Of a DNA stretch of 42,454 nucleotides, positions 2,991-22,639 are shown one piece after another. Source of the stretch: a virus; IMG/VR virus record IMGVR_UViG_3300027754_000182, positions 1 to 42,454 of that record. One strand, written 5' to 3'. The first letter of the stretch is position 1; the number at the start of each line of letters is the position of its first letter. The translations under genes were made by a program, and so were the position numbers. The notes under the pieces are model-generated. The model did no database searches, had not been told where the DNA came from, and was given only the letters and a program-made list of their open reading frames with translations.

Positions 2991-3363
2991 CATAGATAGG
3001 TTTTTCAATTTCTAAACTTATTCCTGAAGAACTAACTGCGCGGCCCACGCTGGTTAAAAAAGCCCCCGAAGCTACTAGGGAATTGAACTGAGTTTGCCAG
3101 GTAGGATAATCTACCAAAGATCCTGATGAAGAGATAGATAAATACTGTAGAGTTCCTGGAGTCAATGTAAGCGAAGAGATAAAAACAGAATCTCCAGCAA
3201 CACTAACAAGGTTAGATGAATTAGCGGAATTCAACGCTAATCCGACAACAGCCGATTGGGTAAAGTTTGTTGCTATGGCTTTACCTAAAAATCCACTAGA
3301 AGTAAGGTAAACAGCATTACCTTGGGAAACAGCGTCAGTGGTCGTAAAGGAAGTAATAGCCAT
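2980..3363 (-). CDS. Small fibre/decoration-like structural protein (paralogue of 882-1385)
   Basis: 127 residues, starting MAITSFTTTDAVSQGNAVYL. It has a beta-rich look (alternating Val/Ser/Gly) and a C-terminal module shared with the 882-1385 product: an LTPGTLQYLS segment, a hydrophobic SLVASGAFLTSVG stretch, and an ending of alternating charged and hydrophobic residues (SLEIEKPIYV). The N-terminal QGNAVYL.SSG also resembles short decoration-type repeats. It is shorter by 40 residues than its paralogue. Convergent with the integrase, sharing 11 nt. Probably a virion surface protein, inferred from context. Confidence 0.55.
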   Translation of the reverse strand: MAITSFTTTDAVSQGNAVYLTSSGFLGKAIATNFTQSAVVGLALNSANSSNLVSVAGDSVFISSLTLTPGTLQYLSISSSGSLVDYPTWQTQFNSLVASGAFLTSVGRAVSSSGISLEIEKPIYVTK

Positions 3364-6830: not shown

Positions 6831-7242
6831 TCTTTCAAAGAACGCAGCAATGTTGGTTAAACAACTGTTTCATGGAAACGAAACAGAAACAATGATTGCT
6901 GCGGGGGTGATGCGAACCATTCTGGCTGACATCACAAAAATTTATTTTGATAACAAGAAGTCTTTAGGCAAGGGCATCTTAGTTTTTAACCCTGAAGATC
7001 CACAAAAGAGTAAGTACCTAACGACAAAAGATCTGTATAGAGATCTAGCGTTAGCTGAAGAAATGATGCACAAAGAAGTTTGCCGAATGCTGAAGAAGGT
7101 AGATAAATTTATCGAAGAGCACGAGGACGAAAACCTAGCACTCGTTGCAATGATCCAACCTGAAGGAGTATCTCTACACCTTATAGATCCGCAACAGGTG
7201 AATAAACGTATAGACGAATTTTCTCGTGGTCTTATCCTCTAA
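6823..7242 (+). CDS. Unknown helical protein
   Basis: 139 residues, not recognised. It is highly charged and probably all-helical: an N-terminal helix (KNAAMLVKQLFHGNE), a Met-rich stretch (MIAAGVMRTILADI), and a long central helix with EEMMHKEVCRMLKKVDKFIE, which could be a coiled coil. The start overlaps the previous stop by 8 nt (ATGACTAAT), so translation should be coupled. It lies between an Xis-like gene and the Dam-like gene in the plus-strand cassette and may serve DNA metabolism, but nothing in the sequence shows this. Confidence 0.6.
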   Translation: MTNLSKNAAMLVKQLFHGNETETMIAAGVMRTILADITKIYFDNKKSLGKGILVFNPEDPQKSKYLTTKDLYRDLALAEEMMHKEVCRMLKKVDKFIEEHEDENLALVAMIQPEGVSLHLIDPQQVNKRIDEFSRGLIL

Positions 7243-7804
7243 AGATTTTGTTTCGCCGCCGGAATTAATTGCTCTTACAGCCGCGTTTTATGGTGGATCA
7301 ATTGATTTAGATCCAGCCTCCAGTGAACACGCAAACCAAGTTGTACAGGCTGAGCGATATTTTAACTGGCAAAATAACGGTTTAGTTCAGACCTGGAAGG
7401 CTAAAAATATTTATCTTTACCCTCCCAGAGCTGTTGCGCTAAAGCACGAGCAGCCAAAGCCAATTAAGTTATTTACAAAAAACAATCAATTTAAAAAATC
7501 AAACCAACGTATCTGGTTAGAACAAGCATATAGAAAATGGCTTCATAAAGAATTTGAGCAGGGAATTTTGTTTATAACTTCTACTGAGGTTGCTTTTATC
7601 TCGACGCAACGAATTAATTTTGATTTTCCTCTGTGTATCCTGAAAAATAAACCAAAATTGTTAATTGATGACGAAACTTTAAAACCTTTAAAAAACTGCA
7701 GGGTGTTTGGTTTTATTTACTACTTACCTCCTGTGACACAGTACGAATCAAGCGTTAGTAAGTTTCGTGAGATGTATAGTAGTCTGGGACGGGTTTATAC
7801 GTAA
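7226..7804 (+). CDS. Phage Dam-type N6-adenine methyltransferase homologue with altered catalytic motif
   Basis: 192 residues from GTG 7226, overlapping the previous gene by 17 nt. Residues 8-60 match the start of the phage DNA N-6-adenine-methyltransferase family (Dam, PF05869): FVSPPELIALTAAF, SIDLDPASSEHAN, AERYF, NNGLVQTWK. In that family the next segment holds the catalytic (N/D)PPY in the context W.NPPY. Here it reads YLYPPRA (residues 63-69), so both flanking catalytic residues are lost. Downstream ITSTEVAFI fits the family's later strand. It may be inactive or a DNA-binding remnant. Its end overlaps the opposing gene by 50 nt. Confidence 0.7.
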   Translation: MVLSSKDFVSPPELIALTAAFYGGSIDLDPASSEHANQVVQAERYFNWQNNGLVQTWKAKNIYLYPPRAVALKHEQPKPIKLFTKNNQFKKSNQRIWLEQAYRKWLHKEFEQGILFITSTEVAFISTQRINFDFPLCILKNKPKLLIDDETLKPLKNCRVFGFIYYLPPVTQYESSVSKFREMYSSLGRVYT

Positions 7805-8865: not shown

Positions 8866-9741
8866 CTAAATTACAGGTCTAGGAGTAGTAAAAGCTTGTT
8901 GTGCTTGAAGCATAAGTCTATTTAGTTTGTCTTGAGTTTCCGCTTGAGCACTTTCAGCAGACGCAATTGCTTGGTTTCGCGCTCGAAGTGCAGCCTTAGT
9001 CTCTTCATCTTCTTTAGCCTCCATAAGATACGATAAAACTTTATCGGAGGAAGCATCACCGTCCTCCTCTCCTTTAAACTCAACAAGCGGCGGACTAGAA
9101 AGTGTTGACCTTTCTAACTCTTTATTACCTTCTCCTGCTTGTTTTAAAAGTCCAGTAATTACACTTGCGACAACTGGATCATAGGCTCTATTTGTTGGTT
9201 GACCTTGAGTGCCACCAGGTTCACCGGTACCTTCAGGAGCTGCGTACCGGACTGAAGGATCATAAGAAACTGAAGCACCGCCGCCACGGTTCTGTACAAA
9301 ACGTTGAATATCGTTAAAAGATCTAACTGGCTGACCCCAATAACTTTTTCCTTGCAACGTAGGTAAGGATGCCCACTCAGGGGCAAGGCGAGCAATAGTG
9401 TTAGGTGAGATCGGATCGCGATCGGGATTAACTCCACGCATGCGAATTAACTGCAACGCCGCTAAGTCTTGAGATCGCGGCCCAAAATCTTTGGCCCCCA
9501 CCATAGGAGCTACCCTATTCCACGTCGTTGACAAAAATTGATACGCGCCCGCAGCATCACTTGTATGGCCTCCACTAGAAACTAAACGTCTGGGGTGGGC
9601 CACCAATTTATTAGTTATAGGTGTATACCCAAACGTAATGTCATACCGAGGTGTACCTTTAGGACCGAGGGTACCCTCAGCAAAAGAAATAATATCTAGA
9701 TAACGACGAGCATTCGGCGATATAAAGTCTTTATTAGTCAT
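8866..9741 (-). CDS. Lambda R-like peptidoglycan lytic enzyme (GH104 type) with C-terminal extension
   Basis: 291 residues from ATG 9741. Residues about 10-150 follow phage lambda endolysin R closely: YLDIISFAEGT (lambda FLDMLAWSEGT, with the catalytic Glu), YDITFGYTP, HPRRLV, AAGAYQFLSTTW, KDFGPRSQDLAALQLI..RG, PEWASLPTL. This family cleaves the glycan strand of peptidoglycan as a lytic transglycosylase. The remaining 140 residues are a Gly/Pro linker and a charged helical tail not found in lambda R, so the enzyme could be virion-associated. The ATG at 9741 has AGAGGAG five bases upstream and overlaps the previous stop by 8 nt; the frame's earlier start is less likely. Confidence 0.85.
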   Translation of the reverse strand: MTNKDFISPNARRYLDIISFAEGTLGPKGTPRYDITFGYTPITNKLVAHPRRLVSSGGHTSDAAGAYQFLSTTWNRVAPMVGAKDFGPRSQDLAALQLIRMRGVNPDRDPISPNTIARLAPEWASLPTLQGKSYWGQPVRSFNDIQRFVQNRGGGASVSYDPSVRYAAPEGTGEPGGTQGQPTNRAYDPVVASVITGLLKQAGEGNKELERSTLSSPPLVEFKGEEDGDASSDKVLSYLMEAKEDEETKAALRARNQAIASAESAQAETQDKLNRLMLQAQQAFTTPRPVI

Positions 9742-9985
9742 TAGGCTCCTCTTGGAATATATCAATATTAGTATCTATAGCCACGTCAAGCTCTTCTAAA
9801 ACAGATTTATACGCACGTTCTCTGCATACAAAATTATAAATAACTTTCCACATATACTGATCCCTCGCTTTTCCTTCCAAACTGATCGCCCTGTTCTTGA
9901 GTCTGGTCAGAACAAAATCGTCTTCGATTGTTAGACCAACAACCAACTGACTTCCGTGGTTTTTCATTGTATCCTCGAAGCTCAT
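9734..9985 (-). CDS. Small acidic helical protein, unknown
   Basis: 83 residues, not recognised: starts MSFEDTMKNHGSQLVVG, then helices with DDFVLTRLKNRAISLEGKAR and a C-terminal acidic end (DTNIDIFQEEPND). It overlaps the lysozyme start by 8 nt through ATGACTAAT, so it is translated just before the lysozyme and might be linked to it. There is no signal peptide or membrane helix, so it is not a typical spanin or holin. Confidence 0.6.
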   Translation of the reverse strand: MSFEDTMKNHGSQLVVGLTIEDDFVLTRLKNRAISLEGKARDQYMWKVIYNFVCRERAYKSVLEELDVAIDTNIDIFQEEPND

Positions 9986-10004: not shown

Positions 10005-10253
10005 TTACCAAGATTTGCAAGCCCAATAACGAGCTTTTAATTTACTCCCAGGTGCATCACAATTATGACGTGCTCTGAAGTTAGCTCTTCGTTCTGGAAT
10101 GTGTTTTTTAATAGTCATATTAGGGTCACCAAAACGCACTAAACGCACAGTATCTCCTTCCTTTGCGGCCACGGCAAACTTTTTACCTCCATCAGAATCT
10201 CGACGAGGCTGATTATATCCTTTGAAGATTTCGCCAGCAAGACGAATCGTCAT
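10005..10253 (-). CDS. Small basic phage protein of the KARH..CxxPGSK..ARYWACKxW type
   Basis: 82 residues. It reads MTIRLAGEIFKGYNQPRRD, then EGDTVRLVRFGDPNM, then FRARHNCDAPGSKLKARYW. Short proteins with a 'GDT..L.RFGD' strand and a C-terminal 'F.ARH.C.....K..A.YW....W' motif are widespread in phages and found near structural genes; I recall the family but not a proven function. The Cys and His residues could bind a metal. It is the most upstream gene of the minus-strand run 10253 to 7755. Confidence 0.65.
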   Translation of the reverse strand: MTIRLAGEIFKGYNQPRRDSDGGKKFAVAAKEGDTVRLVRFGDPNMTIKKHIPERRANFRARHNCDAPGSKLKARYWACKSW

Positions 10254-10289
10254 GCGTCGTATTTCGACTACAATTTAGTCTACCGTAAC

Positions 10290-10319
10290 GATTATGAAAT
10301 TAAGATTAAAAGCATAATC
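10290..10319. promoter_or_regulatory. Spaced inverted repeat in the divergent region before the Xis/Dps pair
   Basis: GATTATG (10290-10296) and CATAATC (10313-10319) form a seven-base inverted repeat with a 16-nt AT-rich spacer. It lies between two divergent genes, just upstream of the -35 box at 10325. It may be an operator or a hairpin. Confidence 0.3.
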
Positions 10320-10324
10320 ATGGT

Positions 10325-10352
10325 TTGACTTACAGCTAATCCCTGCTAACGT
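10325..10352 (+). promoter_or_regulatory. Promoter of the Xis-like/Dps pair
   Basis: TTGACT (-35, 10325-10330), a 16-nt spacer ending in TGC, and TAACGT (-10, 10347-10352) form a sigma70-like promoter with an extended -10. The ATG at 10387 lies 34 nt downstream. Confidence 0.4.
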
Positions 10353-10386
10353 CGTTACGTCCACGACATTTACTTTCTGAACTCCA

Positions 10387-10650
10387 ATGGAGACTGCACG
10401 GCTCCTGACTATCGCTCAGACCGCAGAGCTGCTCAACTGCTCTGCTGGTTTTGTACGTAAACGTATCTCTCTTACCGAATCTAATCAGCCCGGTGGTTGG
10501 CCTAAGGGCATCTTCGTTAATCTTCAGCCAAACGGCGCGAAGTCTCTGTACCGTATTCATCAAGATTCTCTTCAAGAATATTTGAAAAGCGGAGCAGAAG
10601 TTGATAACGAAGAGGTTAATATAGAGGAAAGCGCCGTCTGCGCTCTTTGA
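10387..10650 (+). CDS. Excisionase-like winged HTH regulator
   Basis: 87 residues. The opening ARLLTIAQTAELLNCSAGFV is a MerR/Xis-type helix-turn-helix of the kind called helix_turn_helix_17 (LT..E.AELL..S...VR). A wing with PKGIFVNLQPNGAKSLYRIH follows, ending in a helix DSLQEYLKSG and an acidic tail. It could serve as a recombination directionality factor for the integrase, or as a transcription regulator of itself and the Dps gene behind it. The TGA stop overlaps a TTG codon (TTGA) opening the next frame. Plus strand, alone with the Dps gene between two minus-strand blocks. Confidence 0.7.
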   Translation: METARLLTIAQTAELLNCSAGFVRKRISLTESNQPGGWPKGIFVNLQPNGAKSLYRIHQDSLQEYLKSGAEVDNEEVNIEESAVCAL

Positions 10651-10661
10651 GCTTAAACCTA

Positions 10662-11198
10662 ATGACCTCCTCGATCACGGATATACTTCAGGCTGCCGTC
10701 GAGGCACCTAAGAAAGAAATGATCACCCAGGAGGTCATTATACAAAAAGATAACTGTGTAGACAATTTGATCTACAACATGGTTGCTTTAGCTTCTTATC
10801 TATACCAGCTAAACACGCAAGCGCATCTACTTCATCTAAACATTGAGTCTCCTCAATTTTTAGCTCTGCACGAATTTTTACAAAAACAATACGAACAGCA
10901 CACCACGGACTTTGATACAGTCTCTGAACTGGTCAGAAGCATGGATTACTTAATGCCTATGTGCCAGAACGGGCTACTAAGCGCCTATAAAAAGTTTCCT
11001 AACACCAAAACGTACGAAGCAAACGACAGTCTAGTAACTTATTTAAAAAATCTAGAGCAAGGCGGAATGTTAGGTAAAGCCGTCGTTGAAATGGCTAAAG
11101 AAGTTGAAGCTCCAGATGTAGAAAACTTTGTAGCTGAAATTGTTAACAATATGTTTAAGAGCGCGTGGATGCTCAAAGCAACTTTAAGAAACAGTTAA
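10662..11198 (+). CDS. Dps/ferritin-like iron-storage and DNA-protection protein
   Basis: 178 residues from ATG 10662; a TTG at 10647 would add five residues and couple it to the previous stop. The four-helix ferritin-like pattern of Dps is clear: LIYNMVALASYLYQLNTQAH, then HLNIESPQFLALHEFL, then DFDTVSELVRSM. Counting from the ATG, His58, His70, Asp85 and Glu89 match the intersubunit ferroxidase residues His51, His63, Asp78 and Glu82 of E. coli Dps with identical spacing. YKKFPN and the C-terminal W of SAWMLKATLRN also match. Dps dodecamers oxidise Fe(II) with H2O2 and can coat DNA. In a phage it may limit oxidative damage during infection, or be packaged; neither is shown here. Confidence 0.85.
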   Translation: MTSSITDILQAAVEAPKKEMITQEVIIQKDNCVDNLIYNMVALASYLYQLNTQAHLLHLNIESPQFLALHEFLQKQYEQHTTDFDTVSELVRSMDYLMPMCQNGLLSAYKKFPNTKTYEANDSLVTYLKNLEQGGMLGKAVVEMAKEVEAPDVENFVAEIVNNMFKSAWMLKATLRNS

Positions 11199-20283: not shown

Positions 20284-21099
20284 TTAACCAGCTACTTTAC
20301 GGATCATATTTCTAACACCTTCACCTAACACACCGTACACAGATCCGTAGTTAGGCACGTATCTTGTCGATTTACCTCGATAGCTAGTACGAGACACAAC
20401 ACTCATTTGACCCGGCAAATCACTACGAATTGCTTCCGTAAACACTTGACAATATACAGGAGGACTATAAACCCACGCAGCGCGAGAACCTGATGTGTCG
20501 TTCGTTGGGTTTGTCAAAGCAGGATAACGAACGCGTTGAAAAGATCCGGGACCGCCTGTGATCCCGTTACCTACAAAAGCACCTAAATCTGAATCGTATT
20601 CGTACGGATTATTACTGTTTGGTGTTTTAAAAGGATCATAATTTTGATTGTCAGGAACACTAGCTCCAAACCACGTATAGGTACCAAAATCTTTTAGTCC
20701 AGGTTGAGGACCTAAAGCTGTTTGGACAGTGCGACCAGCAACGCTGTACCTACCTTGAGCCCTAAAGCCAACATAGGTGTCTAATAAACCGGAAGCGTGA
20801 GGCAGTGTATTTTCATAATTAGTCCAGTAACCAGAAATAGCAGGTGGTACTGCCCTCCACTCCGTATTCAAGTACCCACTTATGTTTGGTGGCCCCACGG
20901 GGATTAAACCAAAGTCAGCGCCTTCAAGATTTACACCAAACCATGTCTGCTGAACTCCACTAGGCAGCATGTAGCCACTTGATAGTACTTTATATGTATC
21001 AGTTAAGTTTAAGTTATCCCCTGTACGCTGTGGTCCCGATTGTATTCGGTGATAAAGACTATTATCATAGCGCCAGTTTGTTAAAGGAGTGTAAACCAT
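20284..21099 (-). CDS. Structural protein, unknown
   Basis: 271 residues, not recognised. Rich in Tyr, Gly, Pro, Ser and Asn (NWRYDNSLYHRIQSGPQRTG), with TYTWFGASVPDNQNYDPFKT and GSRAAWVYSPPVYCQVFTEA, so it is probably beta-rich. It ends GVRNMIRKVAG. It lies immediately upstream of the capsid gene on the same strand, with an 84-nt gap that could hold a promoter. Position suggests a head or tail protein. Confidence 0.55.
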   Translation of the reverse strand: MVYTPLTNWRYDNSLYHRIQSGPQRTGDNLNLTDTYKVLSSGYMLPSGVQQTWFGVNLEGADFGLIPVGPPNISGYLNTEWRAVPPAISGYWTNYENTLPHASGLLDTYVGFRAQGRYSVAGRTVQTALGPQPGLKDFGTYTWFGASVPDNQNYDPFKTPNSNNPYEYDSDLGAFVGNGITGGPGSFQRVRYPALTNPTNDTSGSRAAWVYSPPVYCQVFTEAIRSDLPGQMSVVSRTSYRGKSTRYVPNYGSVYGVLGEGVRNMIRKVAG

Positions 21100-21161
21100 G
21101 TTGTTTTAGCGTATAAATTAATTCTACTCCTCTACAATCTGTAAAGAAGTTATCTATCCTA

Positions 21162-21524
21162 ATGGTCAACGCAGAAAGATTTCTAACAATATTTTTTGAA
21201 GACCCAGAAGCTTCGATAGCCTGTTTTTCGGGTTCTTTAACGGATTCTCTCGTGCACCCACAAAAGCGATCCAAACTTGTTGTGTACCTTGTTAAAACAA
21301 CTGTTGTCGGATTATTCCTAGCTACATTTATTAGTCCAGTTTTTCACGATAAATTTAAATTAACAAGAAATGAAGCCATCGCGGCCTCTTTTATCTGCGG
21401 TTATGCCGGAATTCGTATGCTTAACGCAGCTGAAAAATACTTTGAATACGAAATCCAAAAAAGATTACGTAAGCTTCAGCTGAGCTCCACAGATCCATCA
21501 AAATCAGACGACAGCTCAACTTGA
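21162..21524 (+). CDS. Holin candidate with two membrane segments
   Basis: 120 residues. Two predicted membrane helices are visible: KLVVYLVKTTVVGLFLATFI (about 38-57) and EAIAASFICGYAGIRMLNAA (about 71-90), with a short loop between and a charged C-terminal tail (EIQKRLRKLQLSS). Small phage proteins with this two-helix layout and a 'AAA/S-F-x-x-G-x-x-G' second helix are holins or holin-like. It could open the inner membrane so the lambda R-like lysozyme (8866-9741) reaches the wall. It is alone on the plus strand and far from the lysozyme. The role is therefore inferred. Confidence 0.6.
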   Translation: MVNAERFLTIFFEDPEASIACFSGSLTDSLVHPQKRSKLVVYLVKTTVVGLFLATFISPVFHDKFKLTRNEAIAASFICGYAGIRMLNAAEKYFEYEIQKRLRKLQLSSTDPSKSDDSST

Positions 21525-21640
21525 GCTTGGGGTGCAGGAGGAAGCACAGGAGTGACAACCTCAAGGGGTTGATTAACAACAACCTCTTGAACTTCTTTTT
21601 CTAAACTTGGCTTACGACGCAAGGTTCCTAAAGCTCTCAT
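21476..21640 (-). CDS. 54-residue protein beginning MRALG, unknown
   Basis: A minus-strand frame from ATG 21638-21640 to TGA 21476-21478 encodes MRALGTLRRKPSLEKEVQEV, then Pro/Val-rich sequence and an acidic C-terminus. Its first residues resemble MRAIG of the 7755-8027 product. No ribosome binding site is obvious and a terminator lies just upstream, so it would need its own promoter. Its 3' end overlaps the holin gene by 49 nt on the other strand. The frame has no internal stop and a plausible composition. Confidence 0.45.
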   Translation of the reverse strand: MRALGTLRRKPSLEKEVQEVVVNQPLEVVTPVLPPAPQAQVELSSDFDGSVELS

Positions 21641-21669
21641 AATTAATCAGTTGGTACTTGTACATTAGC

Positions 21670-21698
21670 AAAAAAAAGCTCCCCCGTTTCCGAGGGAG
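21670..21698 (-). terminator. Intrinsic terminator after the scaffold gene
   Basis: On the minus strand CTCCCTCG (revcomp of 21691-21698) pairs with CGGGGGAG (revcomp of 21679-21686) around a GAAA loop, with one G-T pair, followed by TTTTTTTT. It ends transcription 24 nt past the 21722-22639 stop. Confidence 0.85.
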
Positions 21699-21721
21699 AC
21701 AATTTCGACCATCTAACGTTA

Positions 21722-22639
21722 CTAAGAAGCATCCATGAACAGGAGCTTGCTGCGAAGAGCTTCGGGCCCAATTTGACTGAGATAACGCCAAGCGTTCTCT
21801 GGGCTGCGATTCATCACGTCACCAAAAGTCTCCCATTGTTGTTGAGGAGCTGGTGCCTGAGTAGACCCACCGGCATTAGCAGGGGGTGCGGGCATATCGT
21901 ACCTGGGCTGATAAGCCTGGGGAGCCTGTTGACCTTGTCCGGGAGAGTCAATGTCCACAGGATAGACTTCAGTGAAGAAGCGGTCAGTATAGTTGGCTAA
22001 GTGATCGGGATTGGTCAAGATAGTCTCCATAGCGTCGTGACGCAGTGCGAGATTATCCATACGACCCGCCTGATCCATCAGCATGTCCTCAAGAGCACAA
22101 GAGTACTGATTGAGAATGCCGGGAGCCTCGATACCGAAGTGGTTAACTACGGCGTGAGTTGCGGGGCTTAGACCGTGTGGGCCGCTTTGTGGGGCCGTAG
22201 AAGTCTGCGAGGAAACCTGGGTCGGTGAGACGCTGGTAGGCAAGGTCTGCGCTACCTGCTGTGCCTGGTAAGCCCAAGGTTGGACCTGTGAAGCCAGATT
22301 GCTCTGTTGAGTAACCTGCGGCTGTGCCACCTGGTAGGGCGACGGTTGAGCCTGGCTGGGGTACGGCGGGTTGATCTGCGTAAGCACCCGCTCCAGTGAA
22401 CCCATCGCTGCTTCCCACGGATTGTTGGGGGAGGACGGCGACGTTAACTGGTTGTACTGGCTGTTGGTAGTAGGCCCCGTAGTCGGTATTCCCGGCGACG
22501 GCAAGTGGGCTGTAGCTGCCGAAGCTACCGCCGGGGTAGGCGTTTGGGTTACCCACTGGGGGTAAGCGGTTGAGCCCTGGTCCGAGGCTACTGCCTGGGA
22601 GACCGGGCTCGGGGTCGAAGCTTGGATCTGCTGGCTCAT
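21722..22639 (-). CDS. Scaffolding protein candidate, overlapping the portal gene
   Basis: 305 residues. The first 165 are Pro/Gln/Ser/Thr-rich and apparently disordered (PVSQAVASDQGSTAYPQWVT). From about residue 165 a helical, charged segment follows: HAVVNHFGIEAPGILNQYSC, ALEDMLMDQAGRMDNLALRH. Then comes a Pro/Gln linker and a helical end FGDVMNRSPENAWRYLSQIG. Position directly after the portal, and helices joined by disordered linkers, fit a phage scaffold. The first 497 nt overlap the portal C-terminus in another frame. If the start were a later Met (for example Met79), the overlap would shrink to 263 nt. A terminator follows. Confidence 0.6.
   Translation of the reverse strand: MSQQIQASTPSPVSQAVASDQGSTAYPQWVTQTPTPAVASAATAHLPSPGIPTTGPTTNSQYNQLTSPSSPNNPWEAAMGSLERVLTQINPPYPSQAQPSPYQVAQPQVTQQSNLASQVQPWAYQAQQVAQTLPTSVSPTQVSSQTSTAPQSGPHGLSPATHAVVNHFGIEAPGILNQYSCALEDMLMDQAGRMDNLALRHDAMETILTNPDHLANYTDRFFTEVYPVDIDSPGQGQQAPQAYQPRYDMPAPPANAGGSTQAPAPQQQWETFGDVMNRSPENAWRYLSQIGPEALRSKLLFMDAS

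Follow-up and report, generated by a model that had tools for sequence, protein, structure and literature searches.

What does a phage gain from a Dps-like mini-ferritin that it encodes directly behind a gene for a small DNA-binding protein? This question is raised by a gene pair in an IMG/VR virus record which was analysed over its whole length of 42,454 bases and is called the window in the following. The window is a complete record of the class without end repeats, and it is therefore perhaps a fragment. Its head-gene region shares 69% DNA identity with the Synechococcus phage S-EIV1, the sole match among 50,697 phage records, and its Dps is 46% identical to the 'DNA-binding ferritin-like protein' of that phage (AHV82153.1, KJ410740; 4e-42). 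The window phage thus probably belongs to the S-EIV1 lineage, and the match of the head-gene region suggests a picocyanobacterial host. In cyanobacterial hosts, iron and oxidants are both abundant as a result of photosynthesis.

An earlier reading made from the sequence alone (the sequence-only reading) had called the second gene of the pair a phage-encoded Dps-like protein, and identity and phage origin are both borne out. The Pfam Ferritin profile (PF00210), which this reading had proposed as a check, matches with 41.3 bits (1.9e-10; cut-off 24.5), PHROG 3636 matches at 1e-20, and matches to the Dps equivalog models lie far under their cut-offs. Structure prediction, also proposed there, gives a monomer closest to solved Dps structures: the AlphaFold model, calculated for the monomer only with 30 window and viral sequences as input, reaches a pLDDT of 79.7, and its best 50 PDB matches are all Dps-type proteins (TM 0.65–0.87) at about 15–20% sequence identity. 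The model contains helices at 38-65, 71-98, 102-108, 125-152, and 156-180 in TTG-based numbering. By its profile matches and predicted fold, the open reading frame is a real Dps-type mini-ferritin. The plus-strand pair itself is likewise confirmed (10387-10650 and 10647/10662-11198). The proposed coupling of the two frames through a TTGA, with a start at TTG 10647 and a 4-nt overlap, has to be given up: the TTG is missing from one relative (L006), while an ATG 1–13 nt past the stop of the first gene is kept in nearly all of them, and the start is therefore placed at the ATG (Table 1). Residue numbers given here count from this ATG; the TTG-based numbers of the alignments and the model are five higher.

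Table 1. Features of the HTH-Dps gene pair; positions refer to the window.
Feature	Position	Strand	Remarks
Divergent intergenic region, probable promoter of the HTH-Dps pair	10254..10386	.	TTGACT-16-TAACGT (TGCTAACGT)
Small DNA-binding protein, 87 aa, partial HTH_17/excisionase-type N-terminus	10387..10650	+	First gene of the pair
Dps-like mini-ferritin, 178 aa from ATG	10662..11198	+	Pfam Ferritin, PHROG 3636, S-EIV1 homologue, AlphaFold model, conserved ATG
Ferroxidase ligands His58, His70, Asp85, Glu89	10833..10928	+	Gln74 and Leu59 for canonical Asp67 and Trp52
Hallmark RSMDYLMPMC (residues 92-101)	10935..10964	+	End of helix B and BC helix (model)

The canonical ferroxidase centre of Dps consists of five residues, two His and an Asp of one subunit together with a Glu and an Asp of the other (PMC6675082), and for E. 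coli Dps it is named as His51, His63, Asp67, Asp78, Glu82, and Lys48 (PMC9140674). The sequence-only reading had assigned a full ferroxidase set to the window protein. The four ligands and Trp169 indeed stand where it placed them, and the ligands align with those of Dps both in phmmer comparisons with solved Dps chains and in an alignment with 41 cyanobacterial Dps; the set is, however, not full, as four of the five canonical residues are present and the fifth, corresponding to E. coli Asp67, is replaced by Gln, with Leu at the Trp52 position. Among the phage relatives position 74 is Lys in 70 of 84 rows. This exchange of the second-site carboxylate and the loss of the Trp suggest that catalysis may be altered. 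Accepted Dps proteins such as NpDps4 deviate as well, with His78 replacing Asp and a non-ligand Asn67 (PMC6675082), and we therefore regard the window centre as a variant that does not exclude the protein from the Dps family. Assignment to the cyanobacterial 'His-type' class represented by NpDps4 was rejected, since the window protein retains the Asp that His78 replaces there. The residues present are consistent with iron oxidation at a centre with a modified second iron site.

The comparison with cyanobacterial Dps proteins (NpDps4, Thermosynechococcus DpsA, Synechococcus Dps) shows a common fold, the same two His, Asp, and Glu, and in the cyanobacterial proteins compared mostly a His at the position of E. 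coli Lys48. In contrast, the phage proteins carry Leu or Phe instead of the Trp next to the first His, which the hosts keep, and Gln, Lys, or Gly at the second-site position where most of the compared hosts have Glu or Met; moreover, they contain an additional His80, nearly invariant among phage Dps and mostly Leu in the hosts. In a tree built from the phage and 41 cyanobacterial sequences alone, the two groups come out on opposite sides of a single branch (100/100 support), each on a long stem. The phage branch is furthermore marked by the near-invariant motif RSMDYLMPMC, including a near-invariant Cys101, which is absent from the 41 cyanobacterial Dps in the alignment. Scanning 84,980 genomes of bacteria and archaea for the hallmark pattern yielded no relative; as the scan applied short exact patterns, it rules out close relatives only. 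Ordinary, distant Dps do occur in cyanobacteria according to profile searches. Recent capture from a cyanobacterial host is unsupported, given the full separation of phage and host Dps in the tree and the scores, with 52 bits for the best host protein versus at least 76 for phage members (76 belongs to a partial copy, the next lowest being 187).

At least 153 relatives of the window Dps are present in IMG/VR, and two search sets combined gave 161 loci encoding 98 distinct phage Dps proteins. The series H-H-H-D-E at positions 55, 58, 70, 85, and 89 is found in 88 of these 98 proteins, which also keep F66, K166, and W169. Close pairs of the window Dps show dN/dS values of 0.05–0.08, and the intact branch as a whole 0.01–0.08. 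Retention of all four window ligands in 88 of 98 homologues together with such values places them far beyond chance. The remaining ten proteins (18 loci) form one clade with N-S-S-N-E at the same positions (L045, L048, L319, L324, L325, L326, L328, L331, L338, L340), in which Phe66 and Trp169 are also missing and Lys166 is gone in most rows, while the hallmark motif is kept. That His55, Phe66, His58, His70, Asp85, and Trp169 are replaced together in these ten suggests that they form one working unit, which supports their assignment to an active site. Wherever dS can be estimated, dN/dS in the ligand-less clade amounts to 0.03–0.08, similar to the intact branch, and thus points to strong purifying selection there too. 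Iron oxidation therefore cannot be the sole function of the family; these substitution rates indicate a function under selection that persists in the absence of the ferroxidase site. Since one clade dropped nearly all ligands and yet kept a selected protein beside a dedicated regulator, S-EIV1-type phages might have turned Dps into a core component that functions without iron oxidation, for example as a late or virion cage, with the ferroxidase site being optional; we consider this rather unlikely.

The first gene of the pair had been described as excisionase-like, and the pair as belonging to the lysogenic state. Neither description is upheld. The HTH protein matches HTH_17 only partially (3.3e-5, 24.5 bits; cut-off 27), and the excise domain (TIGR01764; 5.2e-5, 23.5 bits; cut-off 28.8) also stays below its cut-off. 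About the first 66 residues are strongly conserved, and Cys18 and Cys85 are invariant in 19 relatives. An independent search with the HTH gene found Dps immediately downstream in 79 of 80 loci; the sole exception, on an 82 kb contig (L314, around 3001-3250), keeps the HTH gene with no Dps behind it. The pair as such occurs in at least 21 IMG/VR contigs. If it were a lysogeny module, the HTH protein would act as excisionase and Dps would be a lysogenic-conversion gene, in line with the weak excisionase similarity and with the tyrosine integrase gene that the window also contains (2097-2990, Pfam 7.4e-16). Against this, 20 of 21 related contigs (39–86 kb, which may be incomplete) carry the pair without a tyrosine integrase, presence of the integrase varies even between near-identical relatives, and no prophage copy was seen, the pattern scan of bacterial and archaeal genomes having returned no relative. 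A lysogeny module is thus highly improbable. The integrase gene (plus strand) lies amid opposite-strand virion-type genes and is found in L002 and not in most related contigs; it looks like a variable insertion.

With Dps as neighbour in 79 of 80 loci and an integrase in one of 21 contigs, the HTH protein is more plausibly a regulator than an excisionase, and in the simplest reading it is probably a local regulator of the pair; that it senses iron or redox state through its cysteines is speculation. The pair had also been credited with its own promoter. This is plausible, since an alignment of 31 upstream sequences shows, in most of them, a TG-n-TAA block some 30 nt before the HTH ATG, whereas a promoter consensus scan performed no better than shuffles. 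A link to defence systems was rejected, as PADLOC returned nothing for Dps and no more than a marginal match for the HTH gene.

The location of the pair between two minus-strand virion blocks, as described in the sequence-only reading, holds for one side. Downstream, a virion block follows with a minor-tail-like gene, the major head protein, portal, and terminase, whereas no virion function is known for the upstream flank genes at 9734-9985 and 10005-10253. The 82-aa product of the latter gene (minus strand), of unknown function and assigned to PHROG 7595, is 62–100% identical in relatives, of which IMG/VR holds at least 595; few neighbours of the pair are better conserved. A further gene at 7226-7804 (plus strand) shows weak similarity to phage N6-adenine methyltransferases, with a Dam match (4.5e-6) just under the Pfam cut-off.

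In S-EIV1-type phages the surroundings differ. The S-EIV1 protein belongs to the same phage clade as the window Dps and shares its ligands and hallmark region, but no HTH partner was found in phages of the S-EIV1 type. In many of these, the gene immediately upstream of Dps is a PHROG 1645 virion structural gene of the same strand, and Dps often abuts the gene that comes next. In S-EIV1 (L001) this next gene (20453-21919) is annotated as 'sulfate adenylyltransferase'; it has no Pfam or PHROG match, and the annotation is doubtful. The position behind a structural gene would fit a virion or structural role, in which a late cage is packaged or aids head or DNA maturation, while iron oxidation takes second place or can be dispensed with. 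In BFVD, the predicted structures of some uncultured phage proteins that bear the name 'prohead protease' (A0A6J7WPK9, A0A6J7XDU5, A0A6J7WIS1) include a matching fold of the Dps type; these proteins and the ligand-less clade, with its hallmark retained under purifying selection, point in the same direction. However, the window lineage encodes Dps together with an HTH gene of its own on the strand opposite to that of the virion genes, and most of the family has an intact ferroxidase site, so that we regard this role as unlikely.

The tails of the proteins bear on a further alternative, in which Dps coats or condenses phage or host DNA. DNA compaction is a known ability of Dps proteins, and the tails of the S-EIV1-type proteins, that of S-EIV1 among them, are Lys/Pro-rich with a net charge of 0 to +3 in most. 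The 33-residue tail of the window protein is, in contrast, acidic (−2; pI of the whole protein 4.9), as are those across the HTH lineage. DNA condensation, which the sequence-only reading had offered as one possible use, is hence disfavoured for the window Dps, and we judge a DNA-compacting role to be quite improbable.

Dps fold and family, conserved metal ligands, purifying selection, and fixed pairing with the HTH gene can be read from the sequences themselves, and the most likely role of the window Dps would be protection against oxidative stress through control of iron and peroxide in the infected cell. We favour, with reasonable confidence, a phage Dps cage that is made from the HTH-Dps operon during infection and protects both phage DNA and host. 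The two-gene operon, presumably regulated by its first product, the small HTH protein, would yield the phage Dps, which is expected to assemble into an iron-oxidising nanocage of 12 subunits. This cage would bind Fe(II) set free in the infected cell, use H2O2 or O2 to oxidise it, and keep the iron as ferric mineral. Fenton damage would thereby be reduced, and phage DNA as well as the still-working host may be spared during the infection.

Published phage Dps have been interpreted likewise, which supports the iron and peroxide reading: an oxidative-stress role was proposed for Dps of Lactobacillus myophages (PMC6669764) and for those of 'Gratiaviridae' and 36 other gut phages (PMC8008677). These proteins are phage-borne like the window Dps but belong to other hosts and contexts, and they are distant: a protein of the Lactobacillus phage Semele has 18% identity to the window protein in a structural match. 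In at least one lytic infection, the host's own dps undergoes strong induction (PMC7354516). Phage Dps as a kind is thus already known. For the S-EIV1-type family, its variant iron site, and its ligand-less sister clade, no description was found in a literature search that lay outside the S-EIV1 genome paper (ISME J 2015).

The window Dps accordingly belongs to a widespread, phage-specific Dps branch that counts at least 153 viral loci and combines a modified iron site with a dedicated regulator and a naturally occurring ligand-less clade. The intact and the ligand-less clades offer a natural comparison by which it may be judged whether phages keep Dps for the control of iron and peroxide or for something else.
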